Shown one piece after another: positions 36,343-48,660 of a DNA stretch of 64,000 nucleotides (within the stretch, counting starts at the first letter, position 1; each line of letters opens with the position of its first letter). The notes below the pieces were generated by a model. It had not been told where the DNA came from and made no database searches. It saw only the letters and a program-made list of their open reading frames with translations. Both the position numbers and the translations under genes were made by a program. The stretch is from Marinobacter sp. SS21 (GTDB lineage Bacteria; Pseudomonadota; Gammaproteobacteria; Pseudomonadales; Oleiphilaceae). The DNA is taken from positions 62,001 through 126,000 of the forward strand of contig NZ_JAQNDA010000003.1 in the NCBI RefSeq assembly GCF_028369065.1, read 5' to 3'.

Positions 36343-36960
36343 ATGACACGTCACCTACCGCTGCTCACCGCAATCACCGGCGCAGTTATGTCCGTGCCCG
36401 CCTGGGCCGGTGTACAAACCCTGACTTCCGATGAGATGGTGGAAACCTACGTCAAGGACTCTGCCGTTATCGTGGTACCGCGCCAGCAGCAGAAGCCCGA
36501 GGCCGACCGGCGTCGAATTTTGCAGTCCCTGACCATTTCACCGGGGGAACCGGTGTTGACTGAAGCGGAGGAACAGGCCTACCGGGACGCCGCCCAGCAT
36601 TACCAGGGCCTTACCCAGGACGATGCATTACAGCAGGCCGAGGCCGAATTCCTGCGACGGGCATTGCTGGTGCCTCAGGATGAGATCGCCCTTGCTCAGC
36701 CTCCCGAGTTTTTCATTCCCAACCAACCCCCGATCATTTTCGGCGAGCAACTGGAGATTCCGGACGGGCCCTTCAACCAGACCTTCCTGAACGACCAGTT
36801 AGGTTTGAGTTTTGACGGCCAGAACCTGAACCTGTCCATCGGCAATCCGCCGGGTATCGACCAGATCACTCTGCCCCAAGGCATCAACGAAGGCCCCATA
36901 ACTCTGACGCCCCGGCCTGGCGGGGGATTCGATCTGTCCATTCAAGTGCCGGATCAATAG
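36343..36960 (+). CDS. Exported protein of unknown function
   Basis: The 205-residue protein has a signal peptide (1-22, ending AWAGV). I do not recognise the family. A helical, Gln/Glu/Ala-rich middle (about 70-110) is followed by a Pro/Asn-rich part (about 118-150) and a C-terminal Gly/Pro-rich repeat-like stretch ending FDLSIQVPDQ. There is no cysteine and no membrane span besides the signal. AGAGGCTGGCC precedes the ATG. It stands alone on the plus strand between the inserted element and the convergent DUF6160 gene. Confidence 0.7.
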   Translation: MTRHLPLLTAITGAVMSVPAWAGVQTLTSDEMVETYVKDSAVIVVPRQQQKPEADRRRILQSLTISPGEPVLTEAEEQAYRDAAQHYQGLTQDDALQQAEAEFLRRALLVPQDEIALAQPPEFFIPNQPPIIFGEQLEIPDGPFNQTFLNDQLGLSFDGQNLNLSIGNPPGIDQITLPQGINEGPITLTPRPGGGFDLSIQVPDQ

Positions 36961-37211: not shown

Positions 37212-38222
37212 TTAGTGACCGTAGACAGTCATCTGAGCGTCGATGGCGATATCAGTCATGTACACATCCCCGATAGACGGTGCGGCAGAGCTGCCCATAC
37301 GGATGTTGGTCAGATCCAGATCTCCGGAGAAGTTGTTGACGTTGAACGCCAGGGCATCGCTGCCAGCAGCATTGGTGGCCTTGCCCACATCAACCTGAGC
37401 GTGGGCGAAGCTGGTGTCGGTCAGAGTGTTGCCTGAAGCGTCGGTGATGACCAGTCCGTTGGTGTCGGCGCCGCGACGGTTGTGCAGTTCGAAGTCCATG
37501 TAGGTGCCAACGAAATCAGCGTTCAGGGTACCCTGAGCATTGAAGTAGGCGTTGATGTTCATCACATCGGTATCTTCCTGGATCACGATGTCGATCGGGC
37601 CCAGCAGGCCGCTCATGTTCAGATCAGATACCAGCGTGGTGCTGGTCCCACCGTTGGCACGGCGCTCGGCATCCAGGGCACCGACAGTGGCGGTGCTCTT
37701 GGCCAGGCTCACCGAGCCTACGCTCATACCAAAGTCCACCGGCAGGCCGGAAACAGAACGAATGCCGATCACCAGGTCACCGTCCTGGATCTCAGGCATA
37801 GAGGCTTCGTAGCTGGCGGAACCGTCCGCTTGGGTCTCGGTGTTGTTCCAGGTCACGTTGCCTGCAGCGCTGGCACCCACCAGGTAGGTGTTACCCACAG
37901 CCTGGGCACCAGTGTCGCCAATACCGCCAGCACCGGCCACGTCAATGAACAGTTTAATGTCGTCCAACGCGCCGGCCGTGCCGCCAGCACCGGTCAGCGG
38001 GTTGGCCGCACCACCGATGGTGACATCGTTGATCGCCAGGAAGCCGTCGTCCTGGTAAGCGATTTCACCGACGCTGACGTTGGCTTCGAGTTCAATGGTG
38101 ATACCGGACTGACCGGTCACCGCGCCCATGGTGGCGTCGTCCATGGCTTTCAGTTCCGCCTGGGCGGCGAAGGGTACAGCAGCAACCGCAGTTGCCAGAG
38201 CAAGTTTTTTCAGGCCTTTCAT
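37212..38222 (-). CDS. DUF6160-type exported protein
   Basis: The 336-residue protein has a signal peptide (1-22, ending AAQAEL), then a short conserved N-terminal sequence (LKAMDDATMGAVTGQSGITIEL) seen in DUF6160/FilA-like proteins, and a beta-rich, Gly/Ala/Asp-rich rest without cysteine, ending TVYGH. FilA-like proteins accompany a putative pilus-like system in Acinetobacter; here the assignment rests on the N-terminal sequence only. A good site (AAGGAGAAC) precedes the ATG, and its own terminator follows. Base composition is like the neighbours. Confidence 0.7.
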   Translation of the reverse strand: MKGLKKLALATAVAAVPFAAQAELKAMDDATMGAVTGQSGITIELEANVSVGEIAYQDDGFLAINDVTIGGAANPLTGAGGTAGALDDIKLFIDVAGAGGIGDTGAQAVGNTYLVGASAAGNVTWNNTETQADGSASYEASMPEIQDGDLVIGIRSVSGLPVDFGMSVGSVSLAKSTATVGALDAERRANGGTSTTLVSDLNMSGLLGPIDIVIQEDTDVMNINAYFNAQGTLNADFVGTYMDFELHNRRGADTNGLVITDASGNTLTDTSFAHAQVDVGKATNAAGSDALAFNVNNFSGDLDLTNIRMGSSAAPSIGDVYMTDIAIDAQMTVYGH

Positions 38223-38408: not shown

Positions 38409-38999
38409 TCACCCTCCCTGGGAAGTCCCCGTTGCGGCGGCCGGAGATGATGGCTGGGAGGCGAACACGATGGATTCGAATTCGCCGCGGACGGCATCGC
38501 CATAGGCATAGCCATCGTCGGATTTCTGATATTTAGTAGCCAGAACCCGAGCCTCGCCGTTGAGGTATTCCAGTTCGATGTTGACCTGGGGCTCCGCCGA
38601 CTGCCCGCTGCCGGTGGGCAGGTACTTGTAGATCACCGCCGAACCCAGAATGCGGCCATTGGCAGCCTGGGCCTGCAACGCCGTTCTGACGGATTCGAGC
38701 ACCAGCGCCGGATTGATTCCGGCGGTGTCTTCCCCGGGCCTGATGGCCCAGACAAACTTGACGTCGCCGCTGGGCATCAGCGCGGCTCCGAAAGGCGCGA
38801 AATCTCCGTAATATTCAAGCAGCGCCTTGGCCTTCTTGAGCGTATGACCACCGAGAAACTGCAGGTTCTGATCCACCTCTTGCTGGATCTGGGCCGCGGT
38901 TGGCTGCTGCCTGGCCGTTTCGGATGCGGCAGCACCTGCCGAACCAACCCCCAGGACACAGGTCATCGCCAGGGCGGAAAAAATACCGGTCTTATTCAC
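38409..38999 (-). CDS. Exported protein of unknown function upstream of the DUF6160 gene
   Basis: The start is the GTG at 38999, preceded by AGGAGG five bases before, giving 196 residues. A signal peptide (about 1-27, ending GAAAS) is followed by a mixed alpha/beta part (LKKAKALLEYYGDFAPFGAALMPSGDVKFVWAI) and a Ser/Ala/Pro tail. The pattern, including a GD..F..PF segment, recalls small periplasmic proteins but I recognise no family. It is transcribed in the same direction as the DUF6160 gene, 186 bases upstream of it. Confidence 0.7.
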   Translation of the reverse strand: MNKTGIFSALAMTCVLGVGSAGAAASETARQQPTAAQIQQEVDQNLQFLGGHTLKKAKALLEYYGDFAPFGAALMPSGDVKFVWAIRPGEDTAGINPALVLESVRTALQAQAANGRILGSAVIYKYLPTGSGQSAEPQVNIELEYLNGEARVLATKYQKSDDGYAYGDAVRGEFESIVFASQPSSPAAATGTSQGG

Positions 39000-39148
39000 A
39001 AGGCCTCCTGATTTAGCTTTGGGTATCGCGTGAATGTGCGACATAGAAATCGACACACCTCGCTACCACGTTCAACCAACTCAAAACTTTGCGATAATAG
39101 CGAGCTTGCAGCGGCAACAACCGCGTGGTCCATCAACTTGAGCAAGTA

Positions 39149-43570: not shown

Positions 43571-46258
43571 ATGTTGCTGACCACCAAATTCCTTCGACCT
43601 GCTGCCGACGTGCGCGCCGTTCATCGAACCCGGCTTTTGCGTCTTCTGGAGCCGGAGCAACCGAAACGACTGAATCTGGTGGTGGCGCCGGCCGGGTATG
43701 GCAAAACCACACTAGTCAGCCAATGGTGTGCGGGTTTGGCCGACCGGGTCGCCTGGCTCGCTCTCGATGAGCATGACGATGTGCCTCGCCGATTCTGGCA
43801 TTACGTAGCCGGTGCCATTGCCCATGACGGTGCCGAGCCAATGGCGGACGTCATCGCTCTCATTCAGACCTATCCAGACAACGAACTCGACGGCGCCGTC
43901 ACCGCGTTACTCAACACGCTGGCCCAGAGCCCTGATGCACGGATTCTGGTCCTGGATGATTTTCATGTCATCAAGGACCCGCAAATCCTCCGCCAACTGG
44001 CCTACTTTATCGATTATCTGCCGCCGCAAATTACCGTAACCGTAACCTCCCGCGTTGAGCCGGCGTTGCCGGTGCCCCGCTGGCGGGTCCGCCGCTGGGT
44101 CTGCGACATCCATCCACAACTGTTGGCCTTTTCCGAGACTGAGTGCCGAAATTTCTTTCGTCACTACATGGGGATAGCGCTAAGCGACGATGCCATTAAG
44201 CAAGTTTGGCGGGACACCGAAGGCTGGGTGGCCGCGATGCAACTGTCGGCACTGTCTGGACGGGAGATGGACCCGCAATCCAAGTCCTTGTCGTCGCCAC
44301 TGACGGTGGATGAACGCAAGATCAGTGACTATGTGCTGAGCGAAATCCTCGACCAGCAGCCCACCGATGTGGCGCGGTTCTTGATGGACACAGCCTGCCC
44401 CCCCAGGCTGTGTGCATCACTGTGCGATTCGATTCGGGTCAGCCAGGACAGCCAGCACTACCTGGAACGGTTGTTGAAGGATAACCTTTTTCTGATTCCA
44501 CTGGACTCCGATCACCACTGGTTCCGCTATCACGATCTGTTCCGGGAAGCGCTGCTGCAGAAGGCAAGACAACAGGATCCAGAGCGGGTTGAGGCGCTGC
44601 AGATCAAGGGCATCGAATGGCTGCTGGGCCACAACCACATCCAGGAGAGCATCGCCCAGTTGGTGGATCGCAAAGATTGGCCATGGCTTGCCCAAGTACT
44701 GGAACAGCATGGTAACAATCTGATTCATGCCGGCTTCCATTTGCCGGTGCTCGATTGGTTACAGAAACTGCCGACGCCCCTGATGCGTTCCAGTCCCCAG
44801 CTGATGATGCTGAGAATCTGGGGCCTGTTCTTTGCAAACCGGCTGGACCGGATCGAGCCCGAACTCACCGAACTGGAAAACGAGCTGGACCGGCGAGTGG
44901 CCGATTCCCACCCCGATGCCGAGGGCGCATTAGGGCTGGGAAGCGAAATGTCCCTGATACGCTCTTACCTGGCCCGCAGTCGCAGCGATGAAAAAAGCGC
45001 CACGGACCTGACCCAACAGGTACTGAGGGACATCGACCACACTCGCATCCCTCTCAAGTCCGTGACCTATTACGGTTTGGGGTTGGATTACTTCGGCAAG
45101 GGCGAGCTGACAGCGGCGGAAGATGCACTGCGCTCCTCCGTCCAGCACGGACAGTTCGAACGTAAACCCAGCACGGTGCTGTCCAGCGGGGGGTTACTGG
45201 CCTGGATCCAATGCAGCCGGGGCGACATCGATCAGGCGCTGGAGACCTCATCTGAAATCCGTGGCTGGGTAGACCAGCACTATTACGACCCGCAACAGCC
45301 ACGACTGATTTCCTGCTGGCAGAATAGCGTCATGGTGGAAATCTACCGGGAGCGCAATGACCAGCAATTGGCGGAAGCCTACCTGGTCCCGCTGCTGGAG
45401 CACCTGCAAAGCGGCACCGAACCCGGACAGCACGTCATCATCCAGTATGTCCGCGGCCATCTGGCCTTTAGCGAAGGTCGGTTCGAGGCAGCGATCGAAG
45501 CGCTGGACGATGCCGCCGCCACCGCTGGGCAAAGGCACTGTCACATCGTGTTTGAGCCACCCGCCAGCGGTGCATTGCTGTTGCGCTGTTACCTCGCCCT
45601 GGAGGATAGAAGCCGAGTACTGGCCTGGCTCAAACGCTGCGACGAATTACCGTCGACAAGCCCACTGCCCCGAACCCAGAACGAACTCAGTGCCGGGCGT
45701 GCCCTGGTTTATCTGGGCAAACCTGCGCTCGCCAAGCAGCGGCTGAACGCCCTGCTGACGGAAACCACGGAAACTGTGAGCGTACGACAGCATGTGGAAG
45801 CCAGATTGATCCTCGCCGCCTGCGAGTTAGCCGAAGGCGATTATGCGGGTGCTCTGGCAATCCTTAGTGAGGCCCTTACCAGAGGCGAGGCAGCGGGATT
45901 CCTGCGCCTGTTTCTTGATGAAGGCCTGCCGATCCGCCAAGCGATGCTTGAAACGGACGTGATGCACTCCCCCGGCCGTTGGACCAGCACCCTTCGTCAG
46001 CTGCTGCTGGCCTGTACTGAGCCAATGGGCACCAGTATTGCCGGCACCGGCGCCGTGGCGTTGGTGGAAGCGTTGAGTCAACGGGAACAGGAGGTTCTGC
46101 AACTGATCCATGAGGGTCTGGCCAACAAGGAGATTGCCATCAGGATGGATGTGGCAGGCGCCACCGTGAAAGCGCATATCCGTAACCTGTACGGTAAGCT
46201 TGCGGTCAGCAGCCGCACCGAAGCGCTGGCAAAAGCTCGTCAGGTCGGATTGCTGTGA
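43571..46258 (+). CDS. MalT-type LuxR transcriptional regulator (STAND ATPase)
   Basis: The 895-residue protein has an N-terminal P-loop (APAGYGKTT, 39-47) of the MalT/AcoK STAND class, a Walker B (ILVLDDFH), a long helical-repeat sensor region and a C-terminal LuxR HTH (REQEVLQLIHEGLANKEIA, about 830-895). Such proteins are ATP-dependent, ligand-triggered activators. Similar LuxR genes lie near the pabB-thrH-cysH block in Pseudomonas. There are no maltose genes here, so inducer and targets are unknown; it may control the RNA gene directly downstream or itself. No strong ribosome binding site is seen. Confidence 0.88.
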   Translation: MLLTTKFLRPAADVRAVHRTRLLRLLEPEQPKRLNLVVAPAGYGKTTLVSQWCAGLADRVAWLALDEHDDVPRRFWHYVAGAIAHDGAEPMADVIALIQTYPDNELDGAVTALLNTLAQSPDARILVLDDFHVIKDPQILRQLAYFIDYLPPQITVTVTSRVEPALPVPRWRVRRWVCDIHPQLLAFSETECRNFFRHYMGIALSDDAIKQVWRDTEGWVAAMQLSALSGREMDPQSKSLSSPLTVDERKISDYVLSEILDQQPTDVARFLMDTACPPRLCASLCDSIRVSQDSQHYLERLLKDNLFLIPLDSDHHWFRYHDLFREALLQKARQQDPERVEALQIKGIEWLLGHNHIQESIAQLVDRKDWPWLAQVLEQHGNNLIHAGFHLPVLDWLQKLPTPLMRSSPQLMMLRIWGLFFANRLDRIEPELTELENELDRRVADSHPDAEGALGLGSEMSLIRSYLARSRSDEKSATDLTQQVLRDIDHTRIPLKSVTYYGLGLDYFGKGELTAAEDALRSSVQHGQFERKPSTVLSSGGLLAWIQCSRGDIDQALETSSEIRGWVDQHYYDPQQPRLISCWQNSVMVEIYRERNDQQLAEAYLVPLLEHLQSGTEPGQHVIIQYVRGHLAFSEGRFEAAIEALDDAAATAGQRHCHIVFEPPASGALLLRCYLALEDRSRVLAWLKRCDELPSTSPLPRTQNELSAGRALVYLGKPALAKQRLNALLTETTETVSVRQHVEARLILAACELAEGDYAGALAILSEALTRGEAAGFLRLFLDEGLPIRQAMLETDVMHSPGRWTSTLRQLLLACTEPMGTSIAGTGAVALVEALSQREQEVLQLIHEGLANKEIAIRMDVAGATVKAHIRNLYGKLAVSSRTEALAKARQVGLL

Positions 46259-46262
46259 GCAA

Positions 46263-46278
46263 TGTGATTCAGGTCACA
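46263..46278 (+). promoter_or_regulatory. Perfect CRP/Vfr-type site
   Basis: TGTGA (46263-46267), six bases, TCACA (46274-46278), extended by AA and TT to AATGTGA...TCACATT. It starts four bases after the regulator's stop codon. Its centre (46270.5) lies about 38-40 bases before the start that follows the -10 TATGCT (46297-46302), close to the class II geometry at -41.5. Confidence 0.75.
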
Positions 46279-46308
46279 TTTTCTGCCTGAAAAAGCTATG
46301 CTCTACGC

Positions 46309-46488
46309 CCTTTGGACGATCCCTCTACGCCCCCTGAGCTTTTATGATCGTACTGTCGGTGAGGGTCACCTCACCCGGATTTCTGAAACTTCAGGCCTTC
46401 AGATTTCTTGTTCCGCGTTGGACAACGCGAGGGGGCCATCCACCCCCGCCTTCCTACAGTGCCACCCTTTTGGTTGGCACTTTTTTTT
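46309..46488 (+). ncRNA. Candidate small RNA, about 180 nt, CRP/Vfr-controlled
   Basis: Between the LuxR regulator and dinG, a -10 (TATGCT) behind a CRP-type site is followed by hairpins GGTGAG/CTCACC (46358-46375), CGCGTT-GGAC-AACGCG (46414-46429) and GGGGG/CCCCC (46431-46447), then an intrinsic terminator. No open frame in it is supported: the frames that cross it continue through the terminator. Neither flanking gene needs this sequence. It could instead be a long 3' end of the regulator's message, but the promoter signals argue for a separate RNA. No known RNA family is recognised. Confidence 0.55.
46458..46488 (+). terminator. Intrinsic terminator of the candidate RNA
   Basis: AGTGCCA (46458-46464) pairs with TGGCACT (46475-46481), with an extra CC/GG step inside and TTTT in the loop, followed by an uninterrupted T tract (eight T's from the end of the stem, 46481-46488) on the plus strand. 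Confidence 0.85.
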
Positions 46489-46515
46489 GCCTTCCGGCAC
46501 CAGCAACCCTGTTGG

Positions 46516-48660
46516 TTACGGCTCGATCAGGCGCCGGAATGGCGGTAAGGCATCCAGCAGGAGTCGCCCGTATCGCCGAGTCACGATCCGTCGGTCCAGA
46601 ATGGTAACCCGCCCCTGATCCTGCTCGGTGCGCAACAGCCGTCCTACCGCCTGAACCAGCTTAATGGAAGCGTCAGGCACGGTGATTTCCATAAACGGGT
46701 TCCCGCCTCGTCCCGTCACCCATTCTGCAAGACTGGCCTCGATTGGATCATCGGGCACCGAAAAGGGTAACCGGGTGATCACCACATGGCTGAGGTAGTG
46801 GCCCGGTAAATCAATGCCTTCGGCAAAACTGGCAACGCCAAACAGGACGCTGGGCTTATCGCCGTCGATTCGCTCTCGATGCAGCCGCAGTACTTCACCC
46901 TTGGCCATATCGTCCTGGGTAGTGATCAATCCGGGGTACTGCTCGGCCAACCGGTCCCGCACGGTGTGCATCTGGCGACGCGCGGTAAACAGCACCAGCG
47001 TGGCCTTGTCCGCGGCCCAGAGATCCGGAAGCCGTTTGACCAACGCCTCGGTGAAGTCATCGTCTGTCGGCAACGAGCGCATCGCGGGCACCTCGACGCT
47101 GGCCATTTCGGCGTAACGGAACGAGCTGGGCACCACCATAAATCGGCTCTGCTCCGGCAGCCCGGCCCGCGACCGCAGGCGGTCAAACTTGCCGAGGGCC
47201 GTCAGCGTGGCACTGGTGAGTACGGCCCCATAGGCCCGTGACCACAATCGGCTGTAGAGCAGATTGTCCGCCAGCACCGGACTGCTGTAGAGGGTGATAT
47301 CCTCGACGTGTTCCCAACGTTGCTTTGTCGTCCAACGAGCGACCGGCGGCGCCTTGCCCTTGCCCTCGTCGGGCTTCTCACACCAGGCAACCCACAACCG
47401 TAACTGATCTTCGGCCCGACTGTGGAAGGAGCCAATCACCGGATACCAGGCTTCCGCCGTGTCCCGATCCACGTCGCTGTCTTTCTTGTCGTCAAACGCC
47501 TTTTGCAACTCGTCCGCCAGCACCCCAAGCTGGCGCACCAGCGCGGCCGTGGCGACCTGGGCGGTAGCGGCAAGAGCAGCCACTGACGACGGCACCTCCC
47601 CTTCCGGGAAACGCCACTGGTCCTGGCGGCGGTCCTCGCTCAGTTCCCAGTCGTGACCGCGATCGACCTCGTCAAACACTTGCTGCAGCACCAGATCCAC
47701 GTCCCGCGCCGACTCACTGATCTTATCGACTGTTTTCGCCGCCAGGGTGCCTGGCGTCAGGTATGGAGGAATCTTCGCCAACGCCTGGGACAGTTGCTTC
47801 AGCCATTGCCGGGTGCCGTGCAGCGGCACCGATGCGGCAAAGTGATTCAGCGCCTTGTCCGGCAGATGGTGGGCCTCGTCGAAGATGAACAGTGCGTTTT
47901 CCGGATCGGGCAAAATGGCGCCGCCACCCAGTGCAAGATCGGCCAGCACCAGATCATGATTGGCCACCACCACGTCAGCATCTTCCACGCCTTTGCGGGC
48001 ATCGAAGAAGGCACAGCTGTCGAAGTAACTGCAATGGCGATTGGTACACTGGCGGTGGTCGGTGGTGACCTGTCGCCACACCTCATCGGGAATCTGGCTG
48101 GCCCAGTGGTCGCGGTCACCGTCCCATTCCTGGGAGCCATAGCGCGCCAGCATGTCTTCAAAAAACTCTCGGGTTCCCGGCTCCTGCTCCTTATCGTTAT
48201 CCAGCAGGAACAGGGGCATGGTTTCACTGTCGCCGGCCCCCTCATCATGGAGGCGGGCCTCAAGGCGGGACATGCACAGATAACGCCCCCGGCCTTTTGC
48301 CAGACACCAACTGAATTTGAGGTTGCTGTGAGCCTTGAGGTCGGGTAAGTCCTTGTTGACGATCTGATCCTGCAGCGCCACCGTGGCGGTGGATATGACC
48401 AGGGTTTTGCCCAGCGCACGAGCAATCGGAATGGCCGCGATCAAGTAGGCCAGAGTCTTGCCGGTACCGGTCCCGGCTTCCACCACGCAACTGGCCGGCG
48501 GCGAGGTGCGCAGGCCGTCGCTTTCGGTAATGCTACCCAGATAACGCGCAATTTCGGCAATCATCAGGCGCTGCCCGTAGCGGGCGCGAACGCCCTTGCC
48601 CTCAAGGACACTGCGGTAGGCTTGCTGTATTTCCTGCTTGACGGTTTCGGTAAGAGCCAT
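46516..48660 (-). CDS. dinG: ATP-dependent DNA helicase DinG
   Basis: The 714-residue XPD-like 5'-3' helicase has Walker A EAGTGTGKT (61-69), the four iron-sulfur cysteines C129, C205, C210 and C216, and DEAHHLP. It unwinds R-loops and recombination intermediates. It starts exactly at the gspB stop (TGATG), so it is the third gene of gspA-gspB-dinG by coupling. No LexA box was searched for or seen. Confidence 0.95.
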   Translation of the reverse strand: MALTETVKQEIQQAYRSVLEGKGVRARYGQRLMIAEIARYLGSITESDGLRTSPPASCVVEAGTGTGKTLAYLIAAIPIARALGKTLVISTATVALQDQIVNKDLPDLKAHSNLKFSWCLAKGRGRYLCMSRLEARLHDEGAGDSETMPLFLLDNDKEQEPGTREFFEDMLARYGSQEWDGDRDHWASQIPDEVWRQVTTDHRQCTNRHCSYFDSCAFFDARKGVEDADVVVANHDLVLADLALGGGAILPDPENALFIFDEAHHLPDKALNHFAASVPLHGTRQWLKQLSQALAKIPPYLTPGTLAAKTVDKISESARDVDLVLQQVFDEVDRGHDWELSEDRRQDQWRFPEGEVPSSVAALAATAQVATAALVRQLGVLADELQKAFDDKKDSDVDRDTAEAWYPVIGSFHSRAEDQLRLWVAWCEKPDEGKGKAPPVARWTTKQRWEHVEDITLYSSPVLADNLLYSRLWSRAYGAVLTSATLTALGKFDRLRSRAGLPEQSRFMVVPSSFRYAEMASVEVPAMRSLPTDDDFTEALVKRLPDLWAADKATLVLFTARRQMHTVRDRLAEQYPGLITTQDDMAKGEVLRLHRERIDGDKPSVLFGVASFAEGIDLPGHYLSHVVITRLPFSVPDDPIEASLAEWVTGRGGNPFMEITVPDASIKLVQAVGRLLRTEQDQGRVTILDRRIVTRRYGRLLLDALPPFRRLIEP

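Follow-up and report, generated by a model that had tools for sequence, protein, structure and literature searches.

Does the gap without any gene that separates a MalT-type regulator (stop at 46258) from the convergent dinG host an RNA gene of its own and, if so, what drives this gene and on what does it act? We addressed this question in a 64,000-nucleotide stretch of Marinobacter DNA (hereafter, the window). A first-pass annotation of the window had put the length of the gap at 257 bp, which is correct (46259-46515), and had proposed that it contains a stand-alone RNA gene.

Table 1. Features of the RNA locus and of its predicted target (window coordinates)
Feature	Position	Strand	Basis or remark
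MalT-type large ATP-binding LuxR-family (LAL) regulator, 895 aa	43571-46258	plus	TPR_MalT and GerE domains
CRP/Vfr-type site TGTGATTCAGGTCACA	46263-46278	plus	conserved TGTGA-N6-TCACA type, predicted
Promoter 20-mer CTACGCCCTTTGGACGATCC, proposed regulator site	46303-46322	plus	degenerate pattern, genomes of the genus
Second CTACGCCC, direct repeat 22 bp downstream	46325-46332	plus	TACGCC here in 92 of 99 loci
-10 element TATGAT	46343-46348	plus	TANNNT conserved
Small RNA, about 134 nt, 5' end inferred	46355-46488	plus	covariance model, covariation
Hairpin 1, GGTGAGG-GTCA-CCTCACC	46358-46375	plus	covariation
Seed hairpin	46377-46408	plus	inner stem 46382-46387/46398-46403, loop 46388-46397 ACTTCAGGCC; MFE fold
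Seed UUCAGGCCUU	46390-46399	plus	holds UCAGGCCU
Hairpin 3	46414-46429	plus	MFE fold; corresponding helix with 88.1% of cells paired
Hairpin 4, G/C-rich in the window	46431-46447	plus	GGGTTC..GAACCC hairpin here in many relatives
Intrinsic terminator, hairpin and T8	46459-46488	plus	terminator helix with 97.8% of cells paired
dinG	46516-48660	minus	convergent to the RNA gene
DUF6160 protein gene, predicted target, 336 aa, signal-like N-terminus	37212-38222	minus	PF19657
Predicted pairing site AAAGGCCTGAA	38209-38219	minus	nt +4 to +14 (codons 2-5) of the DUF6160 gene

The gap hosts a structured RNA conserved beyond the genus

We compared the gap with 38 genomes by blastn and found matches in 22 of them, counting the window's own, every one within the same genus. 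Within the matched core, nucleotide identity amounts to 73-83% (in G002, 94% over 33 bases), and for the regulator protein identity is about 55-60%. The regulator adjoins the match in all 21 other matching genomes, and the order of regulator, RNA and convergent dinG is kept in 20 out of 20 relatives with both flanks in the fetched locus. The matching genome without dinG beside the match is G002, whose contig stops there. In this genome (C27:1-1676) the RNA is broken early in the seed hairpin near the start of the contig, perhaps by an insertion element or an assembly break. G000 (C12:800-4600) carries two ORFs of 233 amino acids with a near-identical N-terminus (MPRKTR..LPGVPAHVVQRGHNRDA), lying about 1.1 kb apart, which we take to resemble a REP-type transposase.

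A covariance model built from 21 sequences (R1) matches 100 of the 124 genomes of the genus, with weak or partial matches in G041 and G050, and 112 of the 163 genomes of the family, spread over 7 of its 16 genera. We then considered an alignment of 99 RNAs (A2) with a structure composed of hairpin 1, the seed hairpin, two further hairpins and the terminator. Overall, 93.5% of the cells are paired, as compared to 36-54% (53.7% at most) when the partners are slid, a measure on which this structure is favored because it was drawn from one row. Changes on both sides are found in 24 of the 34 pairs (shuffled mean 11.5). They affect five of the seven pairs of hairpin 1, with 95.3% of cells paired, and five of the six pairs of the inner stem of the seed hairpin, with 97.8% of cells paired. 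When run unaided, RNAalifold returns 16 pairs and a shorter CUGA/UCAG hairpin in which some of the seed would be masked; we favor the long inner stem because of its changes on both sides. The seed loop holds UCAGGCCU in all 99 RNAs.

Folding of 46354-46488 yields -52.4 kcal/mol (z -4.36), and none of 200 shuffled sequences folds as well. The three hairpins proposed by the first-pass annotation all form in this MFE fold, and the intrinsic terminator with a T tract that it described is present as well, although a simple terminator scan does not list it. The RNA thus ends in a U-rich 3' tail. The same annotation had staked its proposal on the conservation of hairpins and promoter in relatives, and both are conserved.

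We found no sign of a conserved coding sequence. ORFs of at least 12 amino acids ending in the RNA have a start column common to at most 13 of the 99 RNAs, and ORFs of at least 60 amino acids from the two through-running starts of the window are seen at only 6 and 11 of the 99 loci. Moreover, indels of 1-2 nt are frequent in the alignment. These data argue for an RNA that is not protein-coding.

The view that the RNA belongs to no known family also held: Rfam 15 has no match in the whole window at the gathering score, and within the RNA stretch the best E-value is 1.2, short of gathering. We considered membership of suhB/mmgR (RF00519), to which the terminator end is similar, and rejected it (15.1 bits versus a gathering score of 41, E 1.2). 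Literature searches on small RNAs of Marinobacter returned nothing relevant. Taken together, the comparison of genomes indicates that the small RNA gene is real.

Promoter elements are kept at near-fixed spacing

To describe the promoter we relied on a motif-anchored set of 99 distinct loci from seven genera, from which six loci near an end had been dropped and in which duplicates had been collapsed. The TGTGA-N6-TCACA reported by the first-pass annotation is present in the window as TGTGATTCAGGTCACA. A CRP-type site with at least 8 of 10 matches occurs in 99 out of 99 loci and is perfect in 64, and the maximum in a control scan over a stretch of regulator coding sequence is 7. In 92 of the 99 loci the site starts exactly 40 bp upstream of the 20-mer CTACGCCCTTTGGACGATCC. 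This conservation at a fixed distance points to a CRP/Vfr-regulated promoter with a predicted site.

Since the 99 loci were anchored on the 20-mer, its conservation among them is by construction, and the genome search provides its own test. The degenerate pattern is found exactly in 98 of the 124 genomes of the genus, and additionally with one mismatch in G104. Allowing up to two mismatches, it occurs in 14 of 341 genomes of the order, 13 of which belong to the family; the remaining one is a two-mismatch match. In contigs representing one genome per species, the exact 20-mer identifies 76 stretches: 73 from Marinobacter, and one each from Tamilnaduibacter, Mangrovitalea and a MAG labelled Halomonas. 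Among the carriers are M. nauticus and M. salarius. The three not titled Marinobacter correspond to G174, G160 and G152, all in the window's family. An exact-match search for viral carriage gave no matches.

Second matches to the 20-mer, with one or two mismatches, occur in three genomes. Read at the level of ORFs, they fall at the beginning of a histidine-kinase gene in G008 and G102 (FleS-like by inspection) and near the end of an ORF in G080 (DUF58-like by inspection). The reversed-pattern control of the search also matches in a number of genomes. We treated these extra copies as chance and rejected them as further regulator targets.

Downstream of the 20-mer, TANNNT starts 40 bp from its first base in 94 of the 99 loci and 39 bp from it in the other five; the control, a stretch of the regulator gene, has the hexamer at a rate of 0.003 per position. 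The 20-mer, the direct repeat CTCTACGCCC, with copies 22 bp apart in the window, and the seed hairpin are the most conserved parts of the locus, and all three had been missed by the first-pass annotation. The -10 element that it had chosen, TATGCT, does occur in the window, at 46297-46302, but it is not conserved; the conserved -10 is TATGAT. This shifts the predicted start from near 46309, as previously placed, to near 46355, 7 nt past the -10, and puts the CRP centre at about -84.5 instead of the class II distance of -38 to -40. A simple promoter scan of the region called no promoter here. By comparison, the near-fixed spacing of CRP site, 20-mer and -10 and the conserved terminator helix are those expected of an RNA gene with its own predicted promoter and intrinsic terminator.

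The conserved stretch 46303-46332 could instead be part of a longer RNA that starts near 46309, with the 20-mer acting as an RNA element. The 20-mer is indeed as strongly conserved as the RNA seed, and the genome of the window offers TATGCT just upstream. However, the lack of conservation of TATGCT, the near-fixed distances between CRP site, 20-mer and TANNNT with only the consensus letters of the -10 held, as in promoters, and the coincidence of the 20-mer with the regulator gene make this explanation improbable. We therefore retain the start near 46355.

The neighboring regulator and the RNA promoter occur together

The regulator shows the LAL architecture, with TPR_MalT and GerE domains, and does not reach the NCBIfam cut-off for the MalT equivalog (426 versus 537 bits). 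At a threshold of E <= 1e-100, it is present in 98 of the 124 genomes of the genus, and all 98 carry the promoter 20-mer. Among the 26 genomes without the regulator, only one, G104, has the 20-mer. The regulator also adjoins the RNA in the 12 loci that we read in six other genera. Since the presence of the regulator and that of the promoter 20-mer coincide almost perfectly, the neighboring regulator is not incidental. Co-occurrence and position lead us to assign it tentatively to the repeats, the second of which is unusually near the -10, and to propose it as the dedicated activator of the RNA.

The exception, G104 (87% complete), has an intact RNA (118 bits), a CRP site with 9 of 10 matches and the 20-mer with one mismatch. 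In the 4.5 kb read upstream (G104:C19:11000-19000), the regulator is reduced to a C-terminal match of 19 residues (E 0.018), and the genome has no DUF6160 match. We read G104 as a module in decay, but it is also the one case of an RNA lacking its regulator and may signal that the RNA can work on its own.

A remnant of the module is apparent in G041 (C1:2304000-2310500). Sequence resembling the 3' end of the regulator and TTTTTGTGA run into the 3' half of the RNA and the terminator beside dinG, as if one deletion had removed parts of both regulator and RNA.

These observations bear on whether the stretch could lack its own promoter and belong entirely to the regulator mRNA, as 3' UTR and terminator. 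The CRP site begins 5 nt past the regulator stop, and the terminator ends the stretch in the same direction, both in line with this reading. Yet the CRP site and the -10 are conserved at near-fixed spacing, the internal structure and the loop of the RNA are strongly conserved, and G104 retains RNA and promoter in the absence of the regulator. We consider this reading highly improbable and continue with a separate RNA gene.

The seed is complementary to the start of DUF6160 genes

We searched ten genomes for AGGCCTGAAG and read the fetched matches (locus L231 included). Among the matches listed and read, the only recurrent site at a translation start corresponds to codons 2-5 of genes encoding DUF6160 proteins. 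In the window, the DUF6160 gene lies about 8 kb from the RNA gene, and its product exceeds the gathering score of PF19657 (120 versus 27 bits).

A degenerate search for MKGLKK in the 124 genomes of the genus returned matches in 97. The match starts exactly at a DUF6160 match in 93 of them, namely 92 with the regulator and G094 (58% complete), which lacks it. ATGAAAGGCCTGAARAAR was read in all of these 92. Matches to ATGAARGGNYTNAARAAR in G074, G088 and G113 were rejected as DUF6160 on reading, and the fourth match outside DUF6160 is an unrelated site in G128. In four genomes (G016, G044, G082 and G128) the DUF6160 protein is altered (MKGLNK, MKGLKR) and the DNA site ATGAAAGGCCTGAA is intact. 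The 92 genomes and these four together place ATGAAAGGCCTGAA in 96 of the 97 genomes of the genus with both regulator and DUF6160; the 97th, G107, was left out of the reading.

The same holds in the other genera, where 11 of the 12 genomes bearing the small RNA have GGCCTGAA at one or more DUF6160 starts. The twelfth, G152 (68% complete), has no DUF6160 match. The best DUF6160 copy matches the seed of its own genome perfectly over 10-13 nt, and other copies match less or not at all. The predicted pairing spans 10 bp in the genome of the window and reaches 13 bp in other genera. The Mangrovitalea genome (G160) has an altered seed, GGCCUCU, which the start of a paralog, ATGAGAGGCCTGAAG, matches over 12 nt. 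This single case is possibly a compensatory change of seed and site. Several genomes of the genus also encode DUF6160 paralogs that start with MKSLKK or similar. These paralogs retain AGCCTGAA, which departs from the seed site by a single mismatch, and may be weaker targets.

Outside DUF6160 genes, the loci that we fetched contain 1,851 mechanical ORF starts, and only one of these has GGCCTGAA within 20 nt. A search of 194 genomes of the order detected DUF6160 in 24, of which 18 lie outside the family. We tried 20 loci of other families and could read the DUF6160 start in 18; none of these starts has GGCCTGA within 30 nt. Altogether, these comparisons point to a conserved complementarity, predicted in silico, between the RNA and the translation start of its target.

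A real RNA could nonetheless have targets other than DUF6160, acting on other messages or on a protein, with the DUF6160 start conserved for its own reasons, such as the signal peptide or codon choice near the AUG. The signal peptide may partly fix MKGLK, one DUF6160 protein from another family also begins with MKGLKK, AAA, GGC and CTG may simply be favored codons, and G104 has the RNA with no DUF6160 match. In addition, duplex energies calculated in the window alone rank DUF6160 9th of 118 ORF starts and do not single it out. As this single-genome rank is indecisive, the target call draws on conservation. Across 67 distinct DUF6160 starts, codons 2-4 are nearly frozen to one synonym each (Lys2 AAA in 67, Gly3 GGC in 66 and Leu4 CTG in 67), whereas the commonest synonym at codons 5-25 has a frequency of 0.35-0.94 and Leu9 is CTG in only 30 of 67 (0.45). 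Synonymous freezing therefore ends at the edge of the complementarity. Furthermore, the DNA site outlasts changes in neighboring amino acids, the MKGLKK gene of the other family uses CTT and not CTG, the Mangrovitalea paralog fits its own altered seed, and regulator, promoter and DUF6160 are absent together, as described below. We regard an RNA without DUF6160 as target as unlikely.

The invariant loop might also serve RNA-RNA dimerization through a kissing homodimer of the self-complementary AGGCCU, with or without mRNA targets. AGGCCU, within 46388-46399, is present in 99 out of 99 RNAs. However, the UC upstream of it, not itself part of the palindrome, is just as invariant, and the complementarity to DUF6160 runs past the palindrome, reaching 12-13 nt in several genera. 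Dimerization is thus a very unlikely reason for the conservation of the loop, which we interpret as a seed for DUF6160 mRNAs.

What the target does can be approached from its predicted features. The structure predicted for DUF6160, with moderate confidence, is beta-rich (mean pLDDT 73.5). Comparison with the PDB gave no fold match at E <= 0.001, and a sequence search had no hit at E-values up to 1. DUF6160 has a weak full-length similarity to FilA, a putative pilus system protein (NCBIfam NF050077) with a link to Acinetobacter; membership was rejected (42 bits versus a cut-off of 220). The genes flanking DUF6160 in the window (38409-39056 and 36343-36960) have no Pfam or NCBIfam match. Because of the signal-like peptide and the predicted beta-rich fold, the output is probably a set of surface or periplasmic proteins, and DUF6160 probably an exported family of this kind. 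The first-pass annotation had envisaged a role in carbon or virulence-type physiology. No finding bears directly on such a role, and the predicted output is instead DUF6160. A literature search on DUF6160 led to PMC11687729.

Regulator, promoter and DUF6160 are inherited and probably lost together

At a presence threshold of E <= 1e-8, DUF6160 occurs in 98 of the 124 genomes of the genus, with one to six matches each. The full set of regulator, promoter and DUF6160 occurs in 97 genomes, and 24 genomes have none of the three. Mixed states are limited to G094 (58% complete), G110 (82%) and G104 (87%). The co-occurrence of regulator and DUF6160 has a P-value of 6e-24 (Fisher test, with relatedness ignored).

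We mapped the module on a dinG tree of 99 rows, comprising 86 genomes with the module and 13 of the 26 without it. All 13 module-less genomes on the tree are also devoid of DUF6160. The tree requires eight state changes, at least six of which are forced by well-supported branches, and long branches leave some placements unsure. The absences are most simply explained as losses, since six other genera have the module. The joint absences probably arose through six or more losses.

Four genomes of another family (f20), Pseudomonas-like in gene order, show a different arrangement: thrH, pabB, two regulators of the MalT-type kind in tandem, DUF6160, and then cysH (three genomes) or cysB (one). A gap of about 250 nt between the second regulator and DUF6160 is conserved. 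This gap holds one weak CRP-like site, and a scan for boxes matching CTACGCCC in 7 of 8 letters found none. R1 detects nothing in the four stretches at E <= 1, and single motif pieces of the RNA locus are scattered in them. Because this gene order occurs without the RNA, the association of regulator and DUF6160 reaches beyond the RNA, and it is probably older. In P. aeruginosa, PA1759 and PA1760 were considered as counterparts. Our literature search found no work on PA1760, and the main text of the work retrieved for PA1759 does not mention it.

Proposed mechanism and comparison with known systems

We think it quite probable that the regulator and CRP/Vfr drive a trans-acting small RNA that pairs with the start of DUF6160 mRNAs and blocks their translation. 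The gene of this RNA of about 134 nt would occupy 46263-46488. Its promoter would be of the sigma-70 type without a good -35, and would need two activators: CRP/Vfr-cAMP bound at about -84, and the signal-bound MalT-type regulator at the CTACGCCC repeats. We infer that both proteins activate transcription from the conservation of the sites and the co-occurrence. The invariant loop UCAGGCCU, possibly with the help of Hfq, would then pair with AAAGGCCTGAA in codons 2-5 of DUF6160 mRNAs, hiding the start region from the ribosome and lowering DUF6160 synthesis. Small RNAs that pair at this position usually block 30S loading, so repression is the likely sign of the regulation.

More tentatively, and with slightly less than even confidence, we suggest that a MalT-type sensor has this RNA as its dedicated and nearly only output, and that a single start-proximal seed lets the RNA control a multigene family of surface proteins whose members are dispersed, in a module that tends to go as a unit. 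In f20, tandem regulators lie directly upstream of DUF6160 and no such RNA was found; the Marinobacteraceae may therefore have swapped direct transcriptional control for an RNA relay. If so, the locus would be an example of a small RNA that entered a pre-existing link between a regulator and its target family. Our searches of the literature and of Rfam found no description of this RNA family, for which we propose an activator, cAMP as a second input and a specific mRNA site, in marine bacteria that can be cultured and several of which degrade hydrocarbons. The module also ties a LAL regulator and DUF6160, both of unknown role, into one regulatory unit.

Three known systems offer a comparison. 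In enterobacteria, the regulator SgrR is encoded beside the gene of the small RNA SgrS, its presumed target for activation. Both loci place a regulator next to a small RNA that pairs, here by prediction, near the start of an mRNA for a membrane or exported protein. Unlike SgrR, the present regulator is a STAND/LuxR protein of the MalT type whose gene runs towards the RNA, and a CRP site is added; unlike SgrS, the RNA presents its seed in a hairpin loop, has no conserved coding part and shows no detectable sequence relation. CyaR and Spot 42 are base-pairing small RNAs under CRP control. They share with the present RNA a CRP-type site at the promoter, an intrinsic terminator and pairing in the start region (predicted here), and differ from it in that the present RNA has no Rfam match and has an additional local regulator. 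Finally, the mal promoters of E. coli depend on MalT and CRP, with direct-repeat sites near -35. The present locus has CTACGCCC as its repeat and an RNA as its product, and its regulator falls below the MalT equivalog cut-off, whereas the combination of a MalT-type regulator, CRP and direct repeats is common to both.
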